The notes under the pieces: model-generated | What the model saw: the letters and a program-made list of their open reading frames with translations, nothing else | Databases searched by the model: none | What the model was told of the DNA's origin: nothing | DNA from: Heliophilum fasciatum | GTDB lineage: Bacteria; Bacillota; Desulfitobacteriia; Heliobacteriales; Heliobacteriaceae | DNA: 64,000 nt | Direction: 5' to 3' | Assembly (NCBI RefSeq): GCF_004341395.1 | Contig: NZ_SLXT01000011.1 | Coordinates: 1-64,000 of the forward strand | Position numbers and translations under genes: made by a program | Part shown: positions 27,990-38,335 of the stretch, one piece after another | Layout: the number at the start of each line of letters is the position of its first letter | How positions within the stretch are numbered: the first letter of the stretch is position 1

Positions 27990-28367
27990 TCAATGTAAGG
28001 TTAATTGCAGCTTACGTACCTCTTCATAAGGCAATCCGGTAATCTTGACTACGAGTTCAGGCGGGAGGCCTTCTTTAAGTGCGTTCAGGGCATTTGTGTG
28101 CTGGGTCTGTTTTATCCCTTCTTCCCGCCCTTCTTCTCGCAACCATTTCTCAATATCGGTCATTCTCAGCACCTCCAATAACATTTTCTTGATGTGATCT
28201 GGGAGAATCTTATCAGTAATAGCAATAATGCTGGCGATACATAATCCCTGTGCTGGTCCTTGGACTTCTTTGGCGAGATAGGCCGCCTGGACGGCCAGTT
28301 CTTCTTCAGTAAATTGGTTGCTGCGCATCAAAGGAAGAAAAATGAGCTTAAGTATATTGTAGATCAC
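27990..28367 (-). CDS. C-terminal-domain-only copy of Rpn-family protein
   Basis: The frame of 125 residues starts with GTG (MIYNILKLIFLPLM) and ends PYEEVRKLQLTLH. It matches the last half of the full-length Rpn protein at 28544-29431 almost residue for residue, but lacks the PD-(D/E)XK nuclease domain entirely. Its charged linker has fewer REEG units. AAGG five bases before the GTG could be a ribosome site, partly inside the upstream palindrome. It may be a 5'-truncated pseudogene. Alternatively it may be a free-standing small protein like the intragenic RpnS inhibitors described for Rpn nucleases. Reading frame is intact, which favours expression or recent origin. Confidence 0.65.
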   Translation of the reverse strand: MIYNILKLIFLPLMRSNQFTEEELAVQAAYLAKEVQGPAQGLCIASIIAITDKILPDHIKKMLLEVLRMTDIEKWLREEGREEGIKQTQHTNALNALKEGLPPELVVKITGLPYEEVRKLQLTLH

Positions 28368-28403
28368 AAAGACCTTGGATCGCTAACATGATCCAAAGTC
28401 TTT
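28368..28403. repeat. Palindrome upstream of the first C-terminal copy
   Basis: AAAGACCTTGGATC (28368-28381) faces GATCCAAAGTCTTT (28390-28403), thirteen of fourteen bases paired with an eight-base loop. In the minus-strand transcript it directly precedes, and partly covers, the ribosome site of the gene at 27990-28367. Equivalent palindromes lie at 29562-29597 and 30119-30154. Confidence 0.8.
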
Positions 28404-28444
28404 TGCTTCAATCCACGCGTACCGCCAAGCGATACATCGTTAAC

Positions 28445-28482
28445 CAGAACAAGACCAGTGCCGGCGCACAGGTCTTGTTCTG
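28445..28482. repeat. Palindrome between the first and second Rpn units
   Basis: CAGAACAAGACC (28445-28456) pairs perfectly with GGTCTTGTTCTG (28471-28482). It lies downstream of the full-length Rpn gene on the minus strand and may end its transcript. The same sequence, with one base change in the loop, is at 29639-29676. Confidence 0.75.
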
Positions 28483-28543
28483 ACTGCTGACAAAGTCAGT
28501 GGCCTTTTATCTTTATCGACCGATCATGAATTTTTGAGGCATG

Positions 28544-29431
28544 TCAATGTAAGGTTAATTGCAGCTTACGTACCTCTTCATAAGGCAATCCAGTAATCTT
28601 GACTACGAGTTCAGGCGGGAGGCCTTCTTTAAGTGCGTTCAGGGCATTTGTTTGCTGGGTCTGTTTTATCCCTTCTTCTCGCCCTTCTTCCCGCCCTTCT
28701 TCCCGCCCTTCTTCTCGTCCTTCTTCCCGCAACCATCTCTCAATATCGGTCATTCTGAGCACCTCCAATAACATTTTTTTGATGTGATCTGGGAGAATCT
28801 TATCAGTAATAGCAATAATGCTGGCGATACATAATCCCTGTGCTGGTCCTTGGACTTCTTTGGCGAGATAGGCCGCCTGGACGGCCAGTTCTTCTTCATT
28901 TAATTGGTTACTGCGCATCAGAGGAAGAAAAATGAGCTTCAGTATATCGTGCTCATCCAAGCCCACATGATTGTGAATTTTGTGTTGTAGCCGCTCCATT
29001 TCCAGGTCGCCATCAAAAGTGCGCATAAAGACATTGTCCACGCGATACGTAAGGGAGGACATTTCTAAAGTCGCCGGTGCTTCTTTGACATTACCAGCGT
29101 AAATCACGGCGGTGTGCACAGGTTTGCCGTGACGCTCGACGATTCGTGCCCCATAGAGAGCAATACGGCGCAGCAGTTCCGGCGGTGTGTTAACTTGAAA
29201 TTCCAGATGCAAAAGGCTGTCATCTTCCAAAAGAAAAACAAAATCGATCCTACGTTCTTTGGCTTCCACCATGGGCAACACTGTCGGCACTGCGCGAAGC
29301 ACGCGAGCGGTATGCAGCCCAAATACATCCAATGTCTTGTCCATAAACGTTTCGGCCATAAATTTCATGACGATGTCCTTGTTCTGATAGGCTACCTCAG
29401 TAGTTTGCACAGAATCTTCTGCCTGGGTCAT
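28544..29431 (-). CDS. Rpn-family recombination-promoting nuclease (PD-(D/E)XK)
   Basis: A 295-residue full-length member of the Rpn/transposase_31-like family. The nuclease core lies in about residues 15-160: RRIDFVFLLEDD with Asp63, then LLHLEFQ with Glu77 and Gln79, the D...ExQ version of the PD-(D/E)XK site, followed by ALYGARIVERHGKPVHTAVIY. The C-terminal part (about 165-295) is helical, contains five consecutive REEG units near 240-260, and ends KITGLPYEEVRKLQLTLH. Family members bind and cut DNA and some are phage-defence toxins held by a small protein made from their own 3' end. Two copies of just that 3' half flank it. GGAAGAAG precedes the ATG. Confidence 0.85.
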   Translation of the reverse strand: MTQAEDSVQTTEVAYQNKDIVMKFMAETFMDKTLDVFGLHTARVLRAVPTVLPMVEAKERRIDFVFLLEDDSLLHLEFQVNTPPELLRRIALYGARIVERHGKPVHTAVIYAGNVKEAPATLEMSSLTYRVDNVFMRTFDGDLEMERLQHKIHNHVGLDEHDILKLIFLPLMRSNQLNEEELAVQAAYLAKEVQGPAQGLCIASIIAITDKILPDHIKKMLLEVLRMTDIERWLREEGREEGREEGREEGREEGIKQTQQTNALNALKEGLPPELVVKITGLPYEEVRKLQLTLH

Positions 29432-29638
29432 CTTCTTCCGTCACATCCTTTCTTTATTGTATCATGTTTCTGAACTACAAGTTTGTTAGAGTAATATTCG
29501 ACACCATAAGTTAATTTCCTTTTTATGTATACACCTTTTTGTAATTATTTTGAAGAATCAAAAAGACCTTGGATCGCTAACTCGATCCAAAGTCTTTTGC
29601 TTCAATCCACGCGTACCGCCAAGCGATACATCGTTAAC

Positions 29639-29676
29639 CAGAACAAGACCAGTGCCGGTGCACAGGTCTTGTTCTG
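29639..29676. repeat. Palindrome between the second and third Rpn units
   Basis: The arms CAGAACAAGACC and GGTCTTGTTCTG are identical to those at 28445-28482. It sits just downstream of the third Rpn copy on the minus strand and upstream of the full-length gene, in keeping with duplication of the whole unit. Confidence 0.75.
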
Positions 29677-29716
29677 ACTGCTGACAAAGTCAGTGGCCTT
29701 TTATTTTCGAGGCATG

Positions 29717-30118
29717 TCAATGTAAGGTTAATTGCAGCTTACGTACCTCTTCATAAGGCAAACCGGTAATCTTGACTACGAGTTCAGGCGGGAGGCCTTC
29801 TTTAAGTGCGTTCAGGGCATTTGTGTGCTGGGTCTGTTTTATCCCTTCTTCCCGCCCTTCTTCTCGCCCTACTTGTCGTCCTTCTTCTCGCAACCATCTC
29901 TCAATATCGGTCATTCTCAGCACCTCCAATAACATTTTTTTGATGTGATCTGGGAGAATCTTATCAGTAATGGCAATAATGCTGGCGATACATAATCCTT
30001 GTATTGGTCCTTGGACTTCTTTGGCAAGATGAGCCGCCTGCACGGCCAGTTCTTCTTCAGTAAATTGGTTGCTGCGCATCAAAGGAAAAAAAATGAGCTT
30101 AAGCATATTGTAGATCAC
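29717..30118 (-). CDS. Second C-terminal-domain-only copy of Rpn-family protein
   Basis: A 133-residue frame starting with GTG (MIYNMLKLIFFPLM) at the same truncation point as the copy at 27990-28367. It differs from that copy at a handful of residues (for instance AAHLAKEVQGPIQG) and in the linker, which reads REEGRQVGREEGREEG. The nuclease domain is absent. Because both short copies share one 5' junction, they probably derive from one truncation that was later duplicated. Either a pseudogene or a small regulator of the full-length nuclease. Confidence 0.65.
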   Translation of the reverse strand: MIYNMLKLIFFPLMRSNQFTEEELAVQAAHLAKEVQGPIQGLCIASIIAITDKILPDHIKKMLLEVLRMTDIERWLREEGRQVGREEGREEGIKQTQHTNALNALKEGLPPELVVKITGLPYEEVRKLQLTLH

Positions 30119-30224: not shown

Positions 30225-30357
30225 CTTTTGCTTGGGAATGGCTATGGTTATGGTTATGGTGGTTACCGTTACCCTGTAGTTTCCGTTATTCCATGGAACG
30301 GGGATAGTGAGGCATGGGGTAGTTGGTCGGCATCCGGTACATGGGGCTGAGATCGCA
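30225..30357 (+). pseudogene. Possible remnant of a Gly/Tyr-rich small protein gene
   Basis: Directly after the last palindrome of the repeat block the plus strand reads, without a start codon, LLLGNGYGYGYGGYRYPVV and continues to a stop about 25 codons later. Such Gly-Tyr runs are common in small spore-coat-type proteins of Bacillota. No ribosome site or ATG is present, and part of the frame overlaps the 3' end of the opposite ferritin-like gene. It may be the tail of a gene cut by the repeat block, or chance. Confidence 0.25.
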
Positions 30358-31206
30358 AGGATCAGCCGGGCGCTGGGCGGGATAAAGATCACAAGGGTCA
30401 GCGATGGGACGGGGATAACTCTGGCGGGGGCGCGGTGCCGACCGTTTCGGGCTGATCCGCTCAGGCATGGGATGGCGCTCATGGGGCATGGGATGACATT
30501 CGTGCGGCATGGGATGACATTCGTGCGGCATGGGATGGCACTCGTGCGGCATGGGGTGGCACTCGTGCGGCATGGGGCGGCATTCTTGCGGCATGGGATG
30601 GCATTTTTCTTGTCGTTTCGGTCGGCACTCTTGGGGCTTATGGTGTTCGTGATGGCAGTGCTCTACCGGTTTGGGGCAAGCTTCCGGTGCAGGGTGGCAC
30701 TCCATCGGTTGCACCGGTAAGGGCTGCAGCGGCGCTGTCAACACCGGTTGAGGAACGCGGGGCGGGCAGCAACTTCCCTCGGCATCGCTGAGCAAGATCG
30801 GCATACGCATGGCATGTTTGGCTTCGTCGGTGCGGGTCATAAAAAAGAGGTTCTTGAGATGAGAATTGCATGCTTTCAGGTATTGTTCGCCATATTTTTT
30901 GTAGTCCGCTGTCTCGGCGATGATCCGTGCTTTCACGGCTTCGGTGAATTCCGGTACGCAGGGGTCGCAGACTGGTTTAGGGCAATAAGGGCAACCGGTA
31001 ATCATGCGATAGGCATCCATGAAACACTGGGCATGTAATGCTTCTTCGCGGCTGAATTCCATGAGCAGCTTGGCGGCTCGCGCTGTAGGGGCATTGGCTG
31101 CCATGATCGCGTAATAACGGCTGTCACAACGTTCGTCGTTGATGTATTCTTCAAGGTCACGAATCAAAGATTTTTTGCTGCTGCCGCAACAATTGGCGTT
31201 TTGCAC
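30286..31206 (-). CDS. Ferritin-like protein with His/Cys heptapeptide-repeat tail
   Basis: The protein has about 306 residues. Residues 10-150 form a four-helix ferritin/rubrerythrin-like domain: DLEEYINDERCDSRYYAIM and FSREEALHAQCF in the first half, FTEAVKARIIAETADYKKYG and TRTDEAKHAMRM in the second, giving two ExxH motifs as in diiron sites. A Cys-rich link (CPYCPKPVCDPCVP) joins the halves. The tail (about 180-306) is rich in His, Cys, Met and Pro, with consecutive HECHPMP-like heptads, and ends with two DPCDL motifs. GTG 31206 was chosen because AAAGGAG precedes it by about eleven bases. The tail suggests metal binding or a spore-coat role; no relative with known function comes to mind. 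Confidence 0.75.
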   Translation of the reverse strand: MQNANCCGSSKKSLIRDLEEYINDERCDSRYYAIMAANAPTARAAKLLMEFSREEALHAQCFMDAYRMITGCPYCPKPVCDPCVPEFTEAVKARIIAETADYKKYGEQYLKACNSHLKNLFFMTRTDEAKHAMRMPILLSDAEGSCCPPRVPQPVLTAPLQPLPVQPMECHPAPEACPKPVEHCHHEHHKPQECRPKRQEKCHPMPQECRPMPHECHPMPHECHPMPHECHPMPHECHPMPHERHPMPERISPKRSAPRPRQSYPRPIADPCDLYPAQRPADPCDLSPMYRMPTNYPMPHYPRSME

Positions 31207-31453
31207 GTGAATCCACGCTCCTTTGGGATGTTTGTTTGCTTTTCGCGATAACATATGGATGATGGGTGAAATGGGTGCCATAATTTGCCTTGATTCGGAT
31301 CTGTTTTTTGACTTCTTGTTTTTGAATATGCCGTTGCATCCGGATCTGGGAGCATCGAAAGTCTTCGCGTGGCAGGGTTTTTTTGCTATAATGAGCAAGA
31401 TCACCTTGCCAAAATTGATGTGTAATTTTTGATGTTGATAGGGGAGAGTTTAC

Positions 31454-32398
31454 GTGAAAACAAGATTGACCGAGTTGCTGGGGATTCAATATCCTGTGCT
31501 TCAAGGGGCCATGGTCTGGATCTCGGAAGCCAACTTGACCAGTGCCGTTTCCAATGCCGGTGGTGCCGGAATTATTGCGGCTGGTGGCCGAACGGCTGAA
31601 TGGCTGCGTGAGGAAATCCGCAAGACCCGTGAACTGACGGATAAGCCTTTTGGTGTCAATATCATGCTGATGGCGCCCAATAAAGAGGAAATTGTCGATG
31701 TGGTTTGTCAGGAAAAGGTCGCTTTTGCGACGCTCGGTGCAGGCAATCCGGTGCCTTTTTTTGAGCAACTCCACGGGGCCGGTGTCAAGGTGATTCCGGT
31801 GGTGCCCAGTGTCCGGCTGGCGCGCCGTGTCGAAGAAAAGGGTGCTGATGCGGTGGTCATCGAAGGGATGGAAGCGGCGGGGCATATCGGTACGCTGACG
31901 ACGATGGCTCTGCTGACGAATGTGATTCCGCAAGTGAAGATTCCTGTGGTGGCTGCCGGTGGTATTGCTGACGGTCGTGGGATGGCGGCGGCGCTGTTGA
32001 TGGGCGCCTCTGGGGTGCAAATGGGATCGCGCTTTTTACTAGCCGAGGAATGCCTGGTTCATCCCAATGCGAAGCAGAAAATTATTGAGGCGACTGATAC
32101 GGACTCGGTGGTGACCGGTTATTCCCGTGGCCATGGCGTTCGTGGGTTGAAAAACAGTTTTTCTTCCAAGTATCTGGCGCTGGAAGTGCAAGGGGCGCCT
32201 GATGAGGAACTGACGGCCTTGGCAACGGGGACAAGCAAAAAAGCCGCCATCGACGGTGATGTCGATGAGGGCTTTGTGCAGGTCGGTCAAAGCTTGAATG
32301 TGTTAACGCGTATTGAGCCGGTGAAGACGATCATCGAGGGAATGGTTGCGGAAGCGAAGGCGACGCTGGTTGGTGCACCGCGGTTGGTGGAGATGTAA
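31454..32398 (+). CDS. fabK: Enoyl-ACP reductase II (FabK) / nitronate monooxygenase family
   Basis: A 314-residue FMN-dependent TIM-barrel enzyme that reduces enoyl-ACP in fatty-acid synthesis. Visible are TRLTELLGIQYPVLQGAMVW at the N-terminus, GVNIMLM, GMEAAGHIG near residue 137-145 (catalytic His), VVAAGGIADGRGMAAALLMG near 168 and GVQMGSRFLLAEE. These match FabK more closely than fungal-type nitronate monooxygenases. It is a single gene: GGGGAGAG precedes ATG 31454, a TATAAT at 31387-31392 is a possible -10 site without a good -35, and a hairpin follows the stop. Confidence 0.88.
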   Translation: MKTRLTELLGIQYPVLQGAMVWISEANLTSAVSNAGGAGIIAAGGRTAEWLREEIRKTRELTDKPFGVNIMLMAPNKEEIVDVVCQEKVAFATLGAGNPVPFFEQLHGAGVKVIPVVPSVRLARRVEEKGADAVVIEGMEAAGHIGTLTTMALLTNVIPQVKIPVVAAGGIADGRGMAAALLMGASGVQMGSRFLLAEECLVHPNAKQKIIEATDTDSVVTGYSRGHGVRGLKNSFSSKYLALEVQGAPDEELTALATGTSKKAAIDGDVDEGFVQVGQSLNVLTRIEPVKTIIEGMVAEAKATLVGAPRLVEM

Positions 32399-32459: not shown

Positions 32460-32500
32460 AGGCGCTCACCGGAACGGATGGTTCCGGTGGGCGCTTTGTG
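32460..32500 (+). terminator. Hairpin after fabK; rest of the 291-base gap
   Basis: AGGCGCTCACCGGAAC (32460-32475) pairs with GTTCCGGTGGGCGCTT (32481-32496), a long GC-rich stem with five-base loop and two G-T pairs. The T run after it is weak (TGTGTCTTT). The rest of 32399-32689 holds no gene; its right part carries the cooC promoter. Confidence 0.7.
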
Positions 32501-32591: not shown

Positions 32592-32620
32592 TTGACGATG
32601 GTGGGGATTTATTATACAAT
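32592..32620 (+). promoter_or_regulatory. Sigma-A type promoter for cooC-cooS
   Basis: TTGACG (32592-32597) is followed, after exactly 17 bases, by TACAAT (32615-32620). Transcription would start near 32627 and give a leader of about 60 bases before cooC. No clear FNR, CooA or other activator palindrome was recognised. Confidence 0.7.
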
Positions 32621-32689: not shown

Positions 32690-33517
32690 ATGAAGATTGC
32701 CGTTGTTGGCAAAGGCGGTGTCGGCAAGACGACCCTTGCCGCTGCGCTGGCTCGTACCCTCGACCACCGGGGATATCAGGTAGTGGCGATTGATGCCGAT
32801 CCCGATGCGAATCTCGCCTCGGCACTACCCCTTGACGCCAATGAGCGCGAGAGGATTGTCCCTTTGGCCCAGCAAGGTGCTTTAATTGACGAAGCGCTGG
32901 GCGGAAAAGAACAACTTCGTGATGGCCTTGTACCCCTTAACCCCGATGTGCGCCCCTTGATTGAGCAACTGAGCGTCTCTTGGGGGCAAGGACAACGCTT
33001 GCTTACCTTAGGGTGGACCAAAGGTGGTGGACAAGGCTGTTATTGTAAAGAAAATGCCTTGTTAAGCCGTGTTCTCTCGGCAATTCCCTCCGGGTCCAAG
33101 GATGTTCTGTTGATTGACAGTGAAGCTGGGCTGGAGCACATGAGCCGTGGCACGATTCGCAAGATTGATGCGGTGATTGTTGTCTTGGAACCGGGGGCAC
33201 GCAGTGTGCAAACGGCCCGGGACCTGCACCGGTTAGCCCAAGACTTGCAAATTCCCAAGTGCTTGGCAGTGCTCAATCGTTGCCCATCTCCGGAGGAACG
33301 CGAAGAAGTGCAGCGGTATTTGCCCACTTGGCCCATCGTCGCCGCGTTTCCCGATGATCCTGCGATCCGTCGTGCTGATCTGCAAGGCAGTCTTCCTCCG
33401 CTGTCCGGTGCTTTTGGTGAAGGTGTAAAACAGATTTTGCAACAGTTGTTCCCTCCGGCGGACAATGCGCCGGTGGACAACGCACCGGAGAACAAGGAGG
33501 GTAGCCATCATGCATGA
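32690..33517 (+). CDS. cooC: CO dehydrogenase nickel-insertion ATPase CooC
   Basis: A 275-residue MinD/SIMIBI-class ATPase that helps load nickel into the C-cluster. The deviant Walker A VGKGGVGKTTLAAALA is at residues 6-21, DADPDANLASALP near 36, and a CYC pair (GGQGCYCKEN, about 116-118) matches the Cys-x-Cys that binds metal between CooC1 subunits. LLIDSEAGLEHMSRG is the Walker B/switch region. GTGGAGAAG precedes ATG 32690. The last eight bases overlap cooS, so the pair is translated together. A full CxC motif argues that the partner still receives a metal cluster. Confidence 0.92.
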   Translation: MKIAVVGKGGVGKTTLAAALARTLDHRGYQVVAIDADPDANLASALPLDANERERIVPLAQQGALIDEALGGKEQLRDGLVPLNPDVRPLIEQLSVSWGQGQRLLTLGWTKGGGQGCYCKENALLSRVLSAIPSGSKDVLLIDSEAGLEHMSRGTIRKIDAVIVVLEPGARSVQTARDLHRLAQDLQIPKCLAVLNRCPSPEEREEVQRYLPTWPIVAAFPDDPAIRRADLQGSLPPLSGAFGEGVKQILQQLFPPADNAPVDNAPENKEGSHHA

Positions 33518-35552
33518 TCCACAAGAGTTGAATGAATATCGTCGTACCTTCCCGTCAACGCAACAAGTGCTGGAGGAAACGCCTGATCCCGGTGTGCGGG
33601 CGATGCTCCGTCATTTTGCGGACCAAGGATTGGAAACTACCTTTGATCGTTTTGATGCACAAAAACCGCAATGTACTTTTGGACTTGCCGGCACGTGCTG
33701 CCGCAATTGTAATATGGGACCTTGTAAAATCACACCGAAAAGCCCACGCGGTGTTTGTGGCGCCGATGCTGACTTGATCGTGGCCCGCAATTTTTTGCGT
33801 TGGGTCGCCGCCGGTGTCTCTGCCCATGGTGCTCGTGGGCGGGAAGTCATGTTGGCGCTGAAAGGCGCTGCTGAAGGAACGATTCCGCTGCCGATCCGGG
33901 GACCGGAAAAAGTGCGTGCCGTAGCCAAAGCGTTGGGGATCACGGCAGATAGGCAAAATCATGAACGCCAGGATCGGCAAGGTCAGCATCAAGCGGGCCA
34001 TGATCAACAACCCCGGAATCTGCAAAGCCTGACTGGATCGGATGATCAAGAACCTTCTACTGAGGAGCTTCAAGCCGAAATCCGCTCACTGGCCGCGCAA
34101 ATTGCCGATGTGCTGCTGGAAGATCTTTCGCGGACCGTTCCCGGTGAACATAAAACCTTGGCGGCCATGGCGCCGCCCGAACGGATCGCGACTTGGCGTG
34201 ATTTAGATATCCTGCCGATCGGTGCCTATCACGAAGTGTTTGAAGCGCTCCATCGTACGGGAACCGGTACTGATGGCGATTGGGAAAACATCGCCCGACA
34301 AATCTTGCGCTGTGGTCTGGCTTTTGCTTGGTCCAGTGTCCTCGGTTCGTCGATTGCGATGGACAGCTTGTACGGTCCGCCCCAACGCCAGCGCATCAGC
34401 GCCAATTTCGGCTCTCTCAAGCCGGAGTACGTCAACATCGCGATCCACGGTCATTCTCCGGTGATGGCCTCAGCGATTGTACAGGCCGCTGAATCGCCGG
34501 AAGCCATCGCCCGTGCCCGTGAACTGGGGGCCGCCGGCATTCGCCTCTATGGCATCTGCTGTTCGGGATTGTCCAGCTTGTACCGTTATGGCCAAGTGCA
34601 CCCCTTAAGCAATGCCATCGGTGCCGAACTGGTCATGGGCACGGGAGCGCTTGATCTCTGGGTCGCCGATATTCAAGACGTTTTTCCCAGCATCATGAAT
34701 GTGGCCGCTTGTTTCCATACCAAAGTCGTGACGACCCATGATGCAGGGCGGTTACCGGGCGCGATACATATTGGTTTTGATCATCACCATCGTAATCTGA
34801 ACAAAGTCGAAGCAATGGCTGCCCAAATTGTCGGGCTGGCGATCGAAAATTACCCCCGCCGCAAGGAAGGCAATGTGTTTATTCCGGAGACATCCATCGA
34901 TGCGGAAATCGGTTTTTCCGTGGAGAATGCATTGCCCCTCTTTGGCGGCCCGCAAGGATTATGGCAGTTGATTGACTCCGGTCAGATCCGGGGAATTGTC
35001 AACTTGGTCGGCTGTAACAACCCCAAAGTGATATATGAAAAGACGATCACCGATGTGGCTGATATTTTACTGGCTAATGATATTTTGATTCTCACCAACG
35101 GCTGTGCTTCTTTCCCGCTCTTGAAGCTGGGCTACTGCCATCCTGACGCGTTGGCGCAAAAAGCCGGCCCTGGTCTGCGCCAAGCACTGGAAGCGCATGG
35201 ACTTCCGCCGGTCTGGCACATGGGCGAATGCCTCGACAATGCCCGAGCATCAGCGCTCTTCCGTGCCGTCGCCGATGCGGCAGGAAGACCATTAAAAGCG
35301 ATGCCCTTCGCTTTTTCCAGCCCCGAATGGTCGAACGAAAAAGGTGCTGGTGCTTCGTTAAGCTTCCGGTTGCTGGGATTGAATTCCTACCACTGTGTGC
35401 CGGCGCCGCTCTTTGGCTCGCCCAATGTACGGAAGTTTTTTGAGCATGATACGGAAGCGCTGTTAGGTTCGGTCATGGTTGTTGATCCTGATCCACGCCG
35501 ACTTGGTGAGCGGATAGTGGCGGATCTGGAGAAGCGGCGAAGTCAAAAATAG
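33510..35552 (+). CDS. cooS: Ni-CO dehydrogenase-family protein CooS with altered C-cluster ligand
   Basis: A 680-residue catalytic subunit homologue of the anaerobic CO dehydrogenases. The N-terminal cluster motif CTFGLAGTCCRNCNMGPC with a further Cys in GVCGAD (Cys55, 63, 64, 67, 72, 83) is complete for clusters D and B. Of the C-cluster ligands, His315 (IHGHSP), Cys351 (GICCSG), Cys502 (VGCNNPK), Cys532 (NGCASF) and Cys574 (GECLDN) are present, as are His106 and Lys611. In the motif usually ending Asp-x-Gln-Cys it has ADIQDVFPS, so Asp390 replaces the cysteine. A Gln/His/Asp-rich insertion spans about residues 146-185. ATG 33510 with AAGGAGGG upstream overlaps cooC. True CO oxidation is therefore uncertain. 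Confidence 0.88.
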   Translation: MHDPQELNEYRRTFPSTQQVLEETPDPGVRAMLRHFADQGLETTFDRFDAQKPQCTFGLAGTCCRNCNMGPCKITPKSPRGVCGADADLIVARNFLRWVAAGVSAHGARGREVMLALKGAAEGTIPLPIRGPEKVRAVAKALGITADRQNHERQDRQGQHQAGHDQQPRNLQSLTGSDDQEPSTEELQAEIRSLAAQIADVLLEDLSRTVPGEHKTLAAMAPPERIATWRDLDILPIGAYHEVFEALHRTGTGTDGDWENIARQILRCGLAFAWSSVLGSSIAMDSLYGPPQRQRISANFGSLKPEYVNIAIHGHSPVMASAIVQAAESPEAIARARELGAAGIRLYGICCSGLSSLYRYGQVHPLSNAIGAELVMGTGALDLWVADIQDVFPSIMNVAACFHTKVVTTHDAGRLPGAIHIGFDHHHRNLNKVEAMAAQIVGLAIENYPRRKEGNVFIPETSIDAEIGFSVENALPLFGGPQGLWQLIDSGQIRGIVNLVGCNNPKVIYEKTITDVADILLANDILILTNGCASFPLLKLGYCHPDALAQKAGPGLRQALEAHGLPPVWHMGECLDNARASALFRAVADAAGRPLKAMPFAFSSPEWSNEKGAGASLSFRLLGLNSYHCVPAPLFGSPNVRKFFEHDTEALLGSVMVVDPDPRRLGERIVADLEKRRSQK

Positions 35553-35646: not shown

Positions 35647-36654
35647 TTGTTTCAGGTCATCATGAATCGTCGGGAGTTAATTAAAACCGGTCTATGGACG
35701 ATGACGGCCGGTGCAGCGCTGATGGCCGCTGGCTGCGGTTCATCGAATTCACAGACCCTATCCGGCAGCGGTGCCGGTGCCAATAAGCCGAAGCTGAAAA
35801 TCGGCTACCTGCCGATTACGGATCACTTGACCGTCATCGGCTTGGATCAGCATCAATTTACCCATAGCCAAGTGGAAGCGGTGAAATTCTCCAACTGGGC
35901 CGAGATCGCCGAAGCAATCAAAGCCGGTGCTATTCAAGGTGCTTTTTTACTGACGCCCATCGGGCTTACGTTACGGCAAAAAGGGGTACCGCTGAAAGCC
36001 GTCATGTTGGGACATCGCAATGGTTCGGTGCTGACCGTGAAAAAAGGCGATGGTGCCCAAAAAATTGAGGACTTGCGCGGTAAAACCGTAGCGATTCCCA
36101 GTCGCTTTTCCACGCACCACATCTTGATCCGCAAAGCCTTGGCCGATCGCGGTGTGGCCGCTTCGGAAGTGAAATTGCTCGACATGGCGCCGCCGGAAAT
36201 GGTCAATGCCTTGGCGACGGGCCGGATCGATGCGTTTATCGTGGCTGAACCCTTTGGCGGTCAAGCGGAACTGCAAGGTCATGGACAAGTGCTGACCTTG
36301 TCCAAAGATTTATGGCCCGATCACATCTGCTGCGCCTTAAATATTCAGGAATCGGTGCTGCAGCAACACCCGGAGGCCGTTACCGAACTGGTCGGTAATC
36401 TGCAAAAAGCCGGCGCTTTTATCGATGCCAACCCGGAAGAAGCGAGCAAGCTGTCGGTGAAGTATTTAGGTCAAAAAAAGGAAGTCATTACCCATGTATT
36501 GACCCAACCACGCGGGCGGGTAACCTTTAATCAATTGGCACCGGCATTGTCTGATTTTACGGCAACGCAAGATTACATGCTTCAGTTTGGGATTACGACG
36601 GAAAAGGTGGATTTGGCTCAGTATGTGGACAATCAATTTGCGAGCGCAACTTGA
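35647..36654 (+). CDS. ABC importer substrate-binding lipoprotein (NitT/TauT type)
   Basis: A protein of about 335 residues of the NMT1/SsuA/TauA family. The N-terminus has NRRELIKTG, a twin-arginine-like motif, a hydrophobic core and the lipobox MAAGC, so it is probably exported folded or by Sec and then lipidated by Lgt. The mature part has KIGYLPITDHLTVIG, TPIGLTLRQKGVPLKAVMLG, and RIDAFIVAEPFGGQAEL, typical of this family. TTG 35647 follows GAGAGGGCGG by six bases; ATG 35662 is the alternative. The permease begins inside its 3' end. The substrate cannot be read from sequence; linkage to cooS suggests a link to that enzyme. Confidence 0.9.
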   Translation: MFQVIMNRRELIKTGLWTMTAGAALMAAGCGSSNSQTLSGSGAGANKPKLKIGYLPITDHLTVIGLDQHQFTHSQVEAVKFSNWAEIAEAIKAGAIQGAFLLTPIGLTLRQKGVPLKAVMLGHRNGSVLTVKKGDGAQKIEDLRGKTVAIPSRFSTHHILIRKALADRGVAASEVKLLDMAPPEMVNALATGRIDAFIVAEPFGGQAELQGHGQVLTLSKDLWPDHICCALNIQESVLQQHPEAVTELVGNLQKAGAFIDANPEEASKLSVKYLGQKKEVITHVLTQPRGRVTFNQLAPALSDFTATQDYMLQFGITTEKVDLAQYVDNQFASAT

Positions 36655-37396
36655 CGGCTGGCTAGCCTTTTTGCTGGTGCTTTTGCTATGGACGGGAGTG
36701 GCCGGATTCTATACGCCGGAGCAGTTGCCGTCACCGCTCGATGTGCTGAAAGCGTTTCCTGAGCTTTGGGAAGCCGATATGCTCGGCAAGCATATCCTGG
36801 TGAGCATGGGGCGTTTTCTCACGGCCTACGGGTTGGCAGTGGTCATCGGGATTCCACTGGGACTTTGGATGGGCTGGGTAACACGGGCGCGGCAGGCCCT
36901 TGATCCGATCATCCAGTTTCTACGGCCCATTTCACCGATCGCTTGGTTTCCTTTGGCTGTGCTTTGGTTTGGTATCGGCAATGCACCGGCAGTGTTTATC
37001 ATTTTCTTAGCCGCTTTTTTTCCGGTGGTGGTGACGACGGTCAGCGCTGTCCGTCAGGTCAATCCCCTTTATTTAAAAGTGGCCTATGATTTTGGCGCCG
37101 GTCCCTTGATGGTTTTTCGGCAAGTGGTGCTGCCGGCCGCTTTTCCGCAGATGATGAATGGCTTACATATTGCTGTTGGGACGGCTTGGATTCATCTGGT
37201 CGCCGGTGAAATGCTTGGCGCCCAAAGCGGCCTGGGGTATTTTATTGTCGATTCACGCAACTTCTTGCGTACTGATTGGATCATCGCCGGCATGATCATG
37301 GTCGGGGCGATTGGCTTGATCATCAATCGCTTGATGCGCACTGCGGAGCGCTGGATCTATCGCCAGTGGGGACAGGAGGCAGGTAGTCATGAATAA
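36623..37396 (+). CDS. ABC importer permease (SsuC/TauC type)
   Basis: A 257-residue inner-membrane permease with six hydrophobic segments. It shows STGRFLTAYGLAVVIGIPLG-like sequence near 60-80 (here SMGRFLTAYG), the RPISPIAWFPLAVLWFGIG motif near 103-121, and the cytoplasmic EAA-type loop DFGAGPLMVFRQVVLPAAFP near 155-174 that contacts the ATPase. ATG 36623 was chosen (AAAAGGTGG twelve bases upstream); it lies inside the binding-protein gene. The ATPase gene overlaps its end by eight bases. Confidence 0.9.
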   Translation: MWTINLRAQLDGWLAFLLVLLLWTGVAGFYTPEQLPSPLDVLKAFPELWEADMLGKHILVSMGRFLTAYGLAVVIGIPLGLWMGWVTRARQALDPIIQFLRPISPIAWFPLAVLWFGIGNAPAVFIIFLAAFFPVVVTTVSAVRQVNPLYLKVAYDFGAGPLMVFRQVVLPAAFPQMMNGLHIAVGTAWIHLVAGEMLGAQSGLGYFIVDSRNFLRTDWIIAGMIMVGAIGLIINRLMRTAERWIYRQWGQEAGSHE

Positions 37397-38219
37397 TGTA
37401 AAAAAAGTTTCTCCTGAGGCGGAACTGGATCCACGTTCGCGTGACTTGGTGTTTCAAATGCGCGGCGTCAGTAAATCCTTCCCTACGCCGGAAGGGCCTT
37501 TGCGGTTAGTCCTGGACGATGTGAATCTGGATATCCAGCAAGGCGAATTTGTTTGCCTCTTAGGTCCCAGTGGCTGCGGCAAGACCACCGTAATGAATCT
37601 GTTGGCACGGTTTATTACCCCTACATCGGGAACGTTGCTGGTCCATGGCGAACCGTTGGTCGCGCCGAACCCGAAGCATGTGACCATTTTCCAAGAACAT
37701 GGCCTTTTTCCCTGGCGGACCGTGATCGACAATGTGGCCTTTGGCGTGCAGGCGCAAGGGGCAAGCAAAAGCGATGCCCGCGAAAAAGCGATAAAATACT
37801 TAGAACTGGTCGGGTTACAGGAAGTGGCCACCTTGTTTCCGCATCAGTTGTCCGGTGGGATGCGGCAGCGTGTGGCCATTGCGCGGGCGCTGGCGGTGGA
37901 ACCGGAAGTGATCTTTATGGATGAGCCGTTTTCGGCGCTCGATGCTTTTACGCGCTACCGTTTGCAAGATGAGATGTTGCGCATCTGGCAAGATCAGAAA
38001 ACAACGATTATTTTTGTAACTCATGATATTGATGAAGCGGTGTATTTGGGCCAAAAAGTGGTGGTCATGGCACCGAATCCGGGGCGGATTGAAATGGTCT
38101 TGCCGATGAATATCGCTCGCCCTTGTGAACGGACGGACAGCCAGTTTCTCTATTATCGCCGTGAAATTTTCAAAGCTTTTCAATTGGTTCATGAGTGGGC
38201 ACCGGAATATGCCATTTAG
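37389..38219 (+). CDS. ABC importer ATP-binding protein (SsuB/TauB type)
   Basis: A 276-residue ATPase. Walker A GPSGCGKTTVMNLLA is near residue 58, the Q loop FQEHGLFPW near 97, the signature LSGGMRQRVAIARAL near 155, Walker B VIFMDEPFSALD near 175 and the switch histidine in TTIIFVTHDIDEA near 208. The arrangement is that of nitrate/sulfonate/taurine importers. GGACAGGAGG precedes ATG 37389, which overlaps the permease. It closes the cooC-cooS-importer group; a terminator follows at 38300. Confidence 0.93.
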   Translation: MNNVKKVSPEAELDPRSRDLVFQMRGVSKSFPTPEGPLRLVLDDVNLDIQQGEFVCLLGPSGCGKTTVMNLLARFITPTSGTLLVHGEPLVAPNPKHVTIFQEHGLFPWRTVIDNVAFGVQAQGASKSDAREKAIKYLELVGLQEVATLFPHQLSGGMRQRVAIARALAVEPEVIFMDEPFSALDAFTRYRLQDEMLRIWQDQKTTIIFVTHDIDEAVYLGQKVVVMAPNPGRIEMVLPMNIARPCERTDSQFLYYRREIFKAFQLVHEWAPEYAI

Positions 38220-38299: not shown

Positions 38300-38335
38300 G
38301 AGCATCACGAGCATGCGGTGGTGCTCTTTTTTTTT
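38300..38335 (+). terminator. Terminator after the cooC-importer group
   Basis: GAGCATCAC (38300-38308) pairs with GTGGTGCTC (38318-38326), nine bases with one G-T pair, and is followed by nine T. It probably ends the transcript from the cooC promoter. Confidence 0.88.

Follow-up and report, generated by a model that had tools for sequence, protein, structure and literature searches.

What does a protein of the CO dehydrogenase family do once one of the cysteines that hold its catalytic cluster has given way to aspartate? The question is raised by a cooS-like gene (33510..35552, + strand, 680 aa) in the window, by which is meant the whole analysed stretch of 64,000 nucleotides from Heliophilum fasciatum. 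It is approached here through the gene unit, the active site, the clade to which the protein belongs, the genes that accompany its relatives, and the transporter encoded beside it.

The gene unit and its surroundings

The cooS-like gene overlaps by 8 bases with a preceding gene for a cooC-like maturation ATPase (32690..33517, +), which carries the P-loop KGGVGKTT and a Cys-x-Cys motif. It is followed by genes for a lipoprotein solute-binding protein (SBP) of the SsuA family (35662..36654, +), an ABC permease (36587..37396, +) and an ABC ATP-binding protein (37389..38219, +), the last two assigned to the NitT/TauT family by profile matches. Since a promoter-like site (TTGACG-17-TACAAT, 32592..32620, +) lies upstream of cooC and an intrinsic-terminator-like hairpin with a T9 tail (38309..38326, +) follows the ATPase gene, both as consensus matches only, it is plausible that cooC-cooS-SBP-permease-ATPase would be read as a single transcript. 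No riboswitch was found upstream within the window. A FabK-like gene (31454-32398) is unlikely to be a member of the unit, because an inverted repeat (32462-32494) and the promoter-like site intervene.

Just upstream of the FabK-like gene, a rubrerythrin/ferritin-like protein is encoded (30286-31404, -; PF02915, 27 bits), whose long tail is rich in Cys, His, Met and Pro, repeats 'HECHPMP' and may bind metal. Three related ORFs within 27990-30118 on the minus strand (27990-28367, 28544-29431 and 29717-30118) are probably tandem duplicates; they resemble Rpn/PD-(D/E)XK transposase-type proteins with GREE repeats, and the longest has no Pfam match.

Asp390 and the ligands of the C-cluster

Residue 390 of the CooS-like protein is encoded by GAC (34677..34679, +) and stands for the second C-cluster cysteine, Cys333 of C. 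hydrogenoformans CODH-II. In pairwise HMMER alignments, this Asp lies opposite the Cys of D-x-Q-C in the solved CODHs 6t7j, 6elq, 6vwy and 6b6v. The claim of the first-pass annotation that an aspartate replaces a C-cluster cysteine is thus borne out, and the check it proposed, a search for the same residue in close relatives, returned Asp in all eight of the nearest. The other ligands it had expected also fall into place in the alignments, all on the + strand: His315 (34452..34454; His261 of CODH-II), Cys351 as Cys1 (34560..34562), Cys502 as Cys3 (35013..35015), Cys532 as Cys4 (35103..35105) and, within Glu573-Cys574 (35226..35231), Cys574 as Cys5, the Ni ligand in CODH. The D- and B-cluster cysteines 55, 63, 64, 67, 72 and 83 (33672..33758, +) are present as well, with Cys55-x7-Cys63-Cys64 as a type II D-cluster and Cys 64/67/72/83 as the B-cluster, and the acid-base catalysts His106 (33825..33827, +) and Lys611 (35340..35342, +) align with His93 and Lys563 of CODH-II. 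The complete six-ligand C-cluster of active Ni,Fe-CODH is therefore lacking, Asp390 replacing one Cys.

Among about 90 aligned homologues, 85 clade-B rows read H-C-D-C-C-C/H-K, with Glu found in 2; Cys at position 390 occurred solely in rows of other clades and in none of the close relatives. Because the Asp is invariant in the eight relatives and the 85 homologue rows are alike, a sequencing error is rejected. Cys401 was rejected as an alternative ligand, since its counterpart in the alignments is a different conserved Cys ('VAACFHT' opposite 'VAQCYHT').

The substitution does not stand alone. At least 7 further changes are fixed in the 30 Asp-type rows, several of them adjoining ligands. They include Thr530 to Asn, just before the ligand Cys532 and confined to the Asp-type clade, with Thr elsewhere; Ser573 to Glu, beside the Ni-ligand Cys, where Ser or Gly is found elsewhere; Thr352 to Ser; and Ala612 to Gly. 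In all 30 rows, the active site is retained and co-ordinately altered. A CODH that still converts CO or CO2, its cluster tolerating an Asp ligand for CO oxidation or CO supply, would explain why the other ligands, the D and B clusters, His106, Lys611 and cooC are all kept; it is nevertheless very unlikely, since the operon is without ACS, CooF, hydrogenase or FNOR, group B-2, to which the protein is assigned below, fails the complete active-site motif, and several of the additional fixed changes adjoin ligands.

Family, fold and clade

The CooS-like protein scored 477.4 bits against NCBIfam TIGR01702 (cut-off 478) and 468 bits against the Pfam family Prismane (PF03063), with weak matches to hydroxylamine reductase models, and its predicted fold has TM scores of 0.83-0.85 to CODHs. 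At residues 388-391 the AlphaFold model falls below a pLDDT of 50, and how Asp390 is oriented is therefore not readable from it. A Gln/His/Asp-rich insertion at about residues 150-181 (33957..34052, +), predicted to be disordered, is missing in the closest relative (75% identical) and in all others aligned.

In a tree of 66 rows, built without the named clade B reference sequences of Inoue et al., all Asp-type proteins group in a single clade (support 100/100), the sister of which is a Cys-type clade, and the two jointly stand apart from all other sampled CODHs. A single Asp-type clade indicates that the Asp change happened once, is old and extends across many phyla. Groups B-1 to B-3 were described as having Asp (or Glu) at the second Cys, a type II D-cluster and the His/Lys pair, and as flanked by NitT/TauT ABC transporter genes, with B-2 devoid of His-rich tails (PMC6344411). 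The window protein combines H-C-D-C-C-C, the type II D-cluster and His/Lys with NitT/TauT ABC neighbours, and it has no His-rich terminal extension (2 His upstream of the CooS core and none in the tail). Judged by its sequence, it is a further member of group B-2, and its Asp variant is already known and very old. The earlier suggestion of a possibly new variant falls away, the exact residue set being that of group B-2 (Inoue et al. 2019, PMC6344411, Table 2). Kinship to CooS-V found no support either: CODH-V belongs to clade D-1, with a different cysteine (Cys1, Cys295) changed to Glu and an acid-base Tyr, whereas the window protein has Cys351, His106 and a type II D-cluster.

The same comparison bears on a stress enzyme of the HCP or CODH-V kind, in which an altered Fe-S-O cluster reduces hydroxylamine or NO, or senses the redox state. 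The shared superfamily, the replacement of a thiolate by an oxygen ligand and the weak hydroxylamine reductase matches fit such an enzyme, and in CODH-II the change C295E abolishes CO activity and confers that of a hydroxylamine reductase (PMC6344411). However, CODH-V differs in the changed residue and in clade, the acid-base His/Lys are kept, unlike in clade D, and the recurring partners of the Asp-type genes are transport and sulfur genes instead of nitrosative-stress genes, so this function is considered improbable. A degenerate non-catalytic remnant or a structural protein is more doubtful still, to the point of being hardly credible: clade B was described as possibly degenerated (PMC13056359), and truncated Cys-type clusters exist (L204 and L205, see below), but the frame in the window is open, and the ligand set and second shell are invariant in all 30 rows from many phyla.

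Two clade B CooS proteins (L009 and L010) carry at the N-terminus over 60 residues of His/Asp repeats (HDHEHHHDHDH), which far exceeds the length needed by a simple tag-like metal site. Two more CODH homologues are encoded in the same genome (L002/L173 on G000:C3 and L003/L174 on G000:C7), both with full cysteine sets and with altered acid-base residues, Asn/Lys (D-2-like) and Tyr/Gln (clade C-like), respectively. No further CODH was found in the genome, and thus none that its residue pattern would place in the CO-active clades A, E or F.

Sulfur genes near the relatives

Neighbourhoods were compared for 81 loci, 80 from named genomes plus the window, and for 4 further Asp-type loci, 85 in total. 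An adjacent cooC, which the first-pass annotation rightly saw kept beside cooS and took as a hint that a metal cluster is still built, was found in just 9/85 Asp-type loci; it is therefore a trait of the heliobacterial/purple-bacterial branch but no general proof of cluster building. An ABC transporter lies near cooS almost throughout, with an SBP in 75 of the 81 loci (window included).

The sulfur genes counted were those for O-acetylhomoserine sulfhydrylase/cystathionine enzymes, cysteine synthase and serine acetyltransferase (MetY/CysK/CysE). At least one was present in the ~20-kb neighbourhood (~10 kb each way) of 32 of the 85 Asp-type loci (31/81 + 1/4), as against 0/26 other-clade CODHs and 0/20 arbitrary regions (0/46 in all); the query sequences were drawn, at least partly, from Asp-type loci themselves. 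Fisher's test gives p 8e-8, a value that overstates the case, given this origin of the queries and the lack of independence between loci of related species. More weight is carried by the fact that the pattern recurs across six broad taxon groups: Pseudomonadota, Desulfuromonadales-like bacteria, Chlorobi, Verrucomicrobia/Lentisphaerae/Planctomycetes, Fibrobacteres and Clostridia. The remaining 53/85 loci have no such gene nearby, and none was found within ~10 kb of the window cooS; the two full-score cysK genes and the SAM riboswitches of this genome are on other contigs. The draft genome paper of Heliophilum fasciatum found no CysJI and left sulfite reduction there open (PMC9147875). A missing sulfite reductase was dropped as support, as siroheme-reductase homologues occur in most genomes tested.

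In the Cys-type sister clade, 10/10 loci have cysK directly before cooS, on the same strand and no more than 3 kb away. Four more Cys-type loci, fetched after the hypothesis as a test of it, all have cysK before cooS, bringing the total to 14/14. At L118, a SAM riboswitch (87.5 bits) heads two PF01053 transsulfuration-type genes followed by cysK-cooS-SBP-permease-ATPase on one strand, while at L116, TusA-like, sulfite-reductase-like and ThiF genes diverge from cysK-cooS-ABC. SAM riboswitches are also near the Chlorobi loci, on the opposite strand. Some Asp-type loci contain a family 2A encapsulin with a cysteine desulfurase cargo, a pair that cyanobacteria induce when starved of sulfur (PMC8049743). 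Decay is seen at two Cys-type clusters with internal deletions: L204 joins a truncated cooS to truncated ABC genes, and L205 a truncated cysK to cooS to the ATPase.

For Megasphaera, a cysteine synthase beside cooS was reported in 11/12 genomes and listed as a minor type without an assigned meaning (Katayama 2024), and the literature search found no link between clade B and sulfur. It is the cysteine- and methionine-gene context of the relatives that is new here, as an association well supported statistically.

The transporter and its solute-binding protein

The nearest solved structure to the window SBP is 3UN6 of S. aureus, which we take to be the SBP of the putative TauBAC operon in the CymR regulon; CmpC/NrtC, TauA and SsuA follow. 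Sulfide represses the S. aureus genes NWMN_0115-0119 (putative TauBAC), members of the CymR cysteine regulon, 11- to 34-fold (PMC5480029). The window SBP barely meets the cut-off of the SsuA family TIGR01728 (163.5-163.7 bits against 163.5), and SsuA_fam is matched by 36/36 SBPs tested. Its subfamily signature, numbered from window position 35725, consists of His97, Ser129/His131 and Cys202-Cys203. Both His97 and Cys202-Cys203 are invariant in 36/36 SBPs (alignment A2), present in the window SBP and 3UN6, and absent from TauA and CmpC. The NCBIfam model SaoX weakly matches all 36 SBPs and the (seleno)protein model SaoB_CU one of them, which suggests a putative, related Cys-Cys/Cys-Sec binding site in the SBP.

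The same His97 and Cys202-Cys203 are carried by SBPs on plasmids of Synechococcus (pANL), Agrobacterium, Thermomicrobium, Bartonella and Pseudonocardia, where the partner of the transporter is a protein of the acyl-CoA-dehydrogenase family and not CooS. On pANL, a sulfur-regulated cyanobacterial plasmid, the ABC operon is near cysK, epsC and srpI, and the acyl-CoA-dehydrogenase-fold protein is weakly nearest to SfnB (39 bits, the cut-off being 431). Flavoenzyme and CooS occur together at four loci, two of them purple-bacterial and two verrucomicrobial. Most simply, these arrangements are read as a single importer of sulfur compounds that can be paired with either of two processing enzymes, of which one works without oxygen. 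A DUF4242 gene directly precedes the acyl-CoA-dehydrogenase-ABC operon at L175 (pANL), L178 and L180; for L175 and L178 it has a Pfam SCO4226-like 'nickel responsive' match, a hint at nickel that the link of the cluster to sulfur does not explain.

Sulfur acquisition has its main rival in the import of nickel or zinc. On this view, Ni2+ or another metal enters through the ABC transporter and is loaded by CooC and by the His-rich tails that relatives carry; CooS would be a Ni-CODH whose cluster has been tuned (Inoue et al. 2019). The kinship of the SBP to 3UN6, termed a metal-binding S. aureus protein by Inoue et al. (PMC6344411), agrees with this, as do the conserved His97 and Cys202-Cys203 as a possible metal site, the His-rich N- or C-termini of many relatives, cooC in the window unit, the 'nickel responsive' DUF4242 beside the transporter in aerobes, and LarE in 5 Asp-type neighbourhoods. 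Yet the same transporter occurs without a CODH in sulfur-regulated settings, and aerobes pair it with an acyl-CoA-dehydrogenase-fold protein; the proximity of cysK at 14/14 Cys-type loci and the cysteine/methionine genes are left unexplained; and all 36 SBPs match a sulfonate-binding family. Metal supply is thus regarded as unlikely, and the two readings may each hold in part.

A role in sulfur acquisition

We know of no settled enzyme by which strict anaerobes without oxygenases obtain sulfur from sulfonates. The unit cooC-cooS-SBP-permease-ATPase probably, if only just, serves anoxic sulfur acquisition, not carbon monoxide use; this role is put forward as a new, context-based hypothesis. The SsuA/TauA-type lipoprotein would capture a small sulfur-containing compound, probably anionic and sulfonate-like, and the ABC transporter would import it. 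The CooS homodimer would then accept electrons of low potential and lead them, by way of its D and B clusters, both intact, to a C-cluster remodelled to His, four Cys and one Asp, adjoined by Glu573 and Asn530, with His106 and Lys611 as proton donors. This cluster would reductively free sulfide or sulfite from the imported compound, and cysteine synthase or O-acetylhomoserine sulfhydrylase would turn the product into cysteine or homocysteine. Gene order, residues, fold, clade membership and the link to sulfur genes in many phyla are observed; the imported compound, the course of the reaction with its direction and chemistry, the metals of the cluster and the single transcript are inferred.

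A broader and more tentative proposal, doubtful on present evidence, is that the clade B 'CO dehydrogenases' act as reductases that remove sulfur independently of oxygen, in which an Asp-ligated Fe-S (or Ni-Fe-S) cluster would cleave a C-S or S-O bond in the imported organosulfur compound, as the acyl-CoA-dehydrogenase-fold flavoenzyme would do beside the same transporter in aerobes. The sulfur-gene association offers a concrete and testable role for the Asp-type CODH-like proteins. If true, it would mean a new activity on the CODH/hybrid-cluster fold, and a change of one cluster ligand and its second shell would have been shown to redirect a Ni-Fe-S site.

Comparison with known systems

The window protein shares with the clade B groups B-2, B-1 and B-3 (PMC6344411) the H-C-D-C-C-C set with His/Lys, the type II D-cluster and the NitT/TauT neighbours, but it differs in the retention of cooC, rare in clade B, and in its Gln/His/Asp-rich insertion of 30-45 residues. 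Its likeness to CODH-V of C. hydrogenoformans (clade D, D-1) is limited to the CODH fold and an acidic residue for a C-cluster cysteine; CODH-V has Glu at Cys1 (295), an acid-base Tyr, a type III D-cluster and no ABC transporter operon. To the CODHs of C. hydrogenoformans (CODH-II), Thermococcus AM4 and D. vulgaris it is 31-35% identical, with the same fold, B/D clusters and acid-base pair, whereas Cys2 is Asp, and Asn530, Glu573 and other fixed changes set it apart. The transporter belongs to the family of the Ssu/Tau sulfonate transporters, S. aureus NWMN_0116-0118 and the pANL ABC operon, and its conserved SBP signature is common to 3UN6 and the pANL SBP; where the Ssu/Tau and pANL systems have a flavin-dependent or acyl-CoA-dehydrogenase-fold partner enzyme, it has CooS. 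Finally, class III HCP of M. marburgensis has the superfamily and the homodimer architecture in common with the window protein (PMC10502027), but its ligands are the hybrid-cluster set with Glu/persulfide, while the window protein keeps ligands and clusters of the CODH type.
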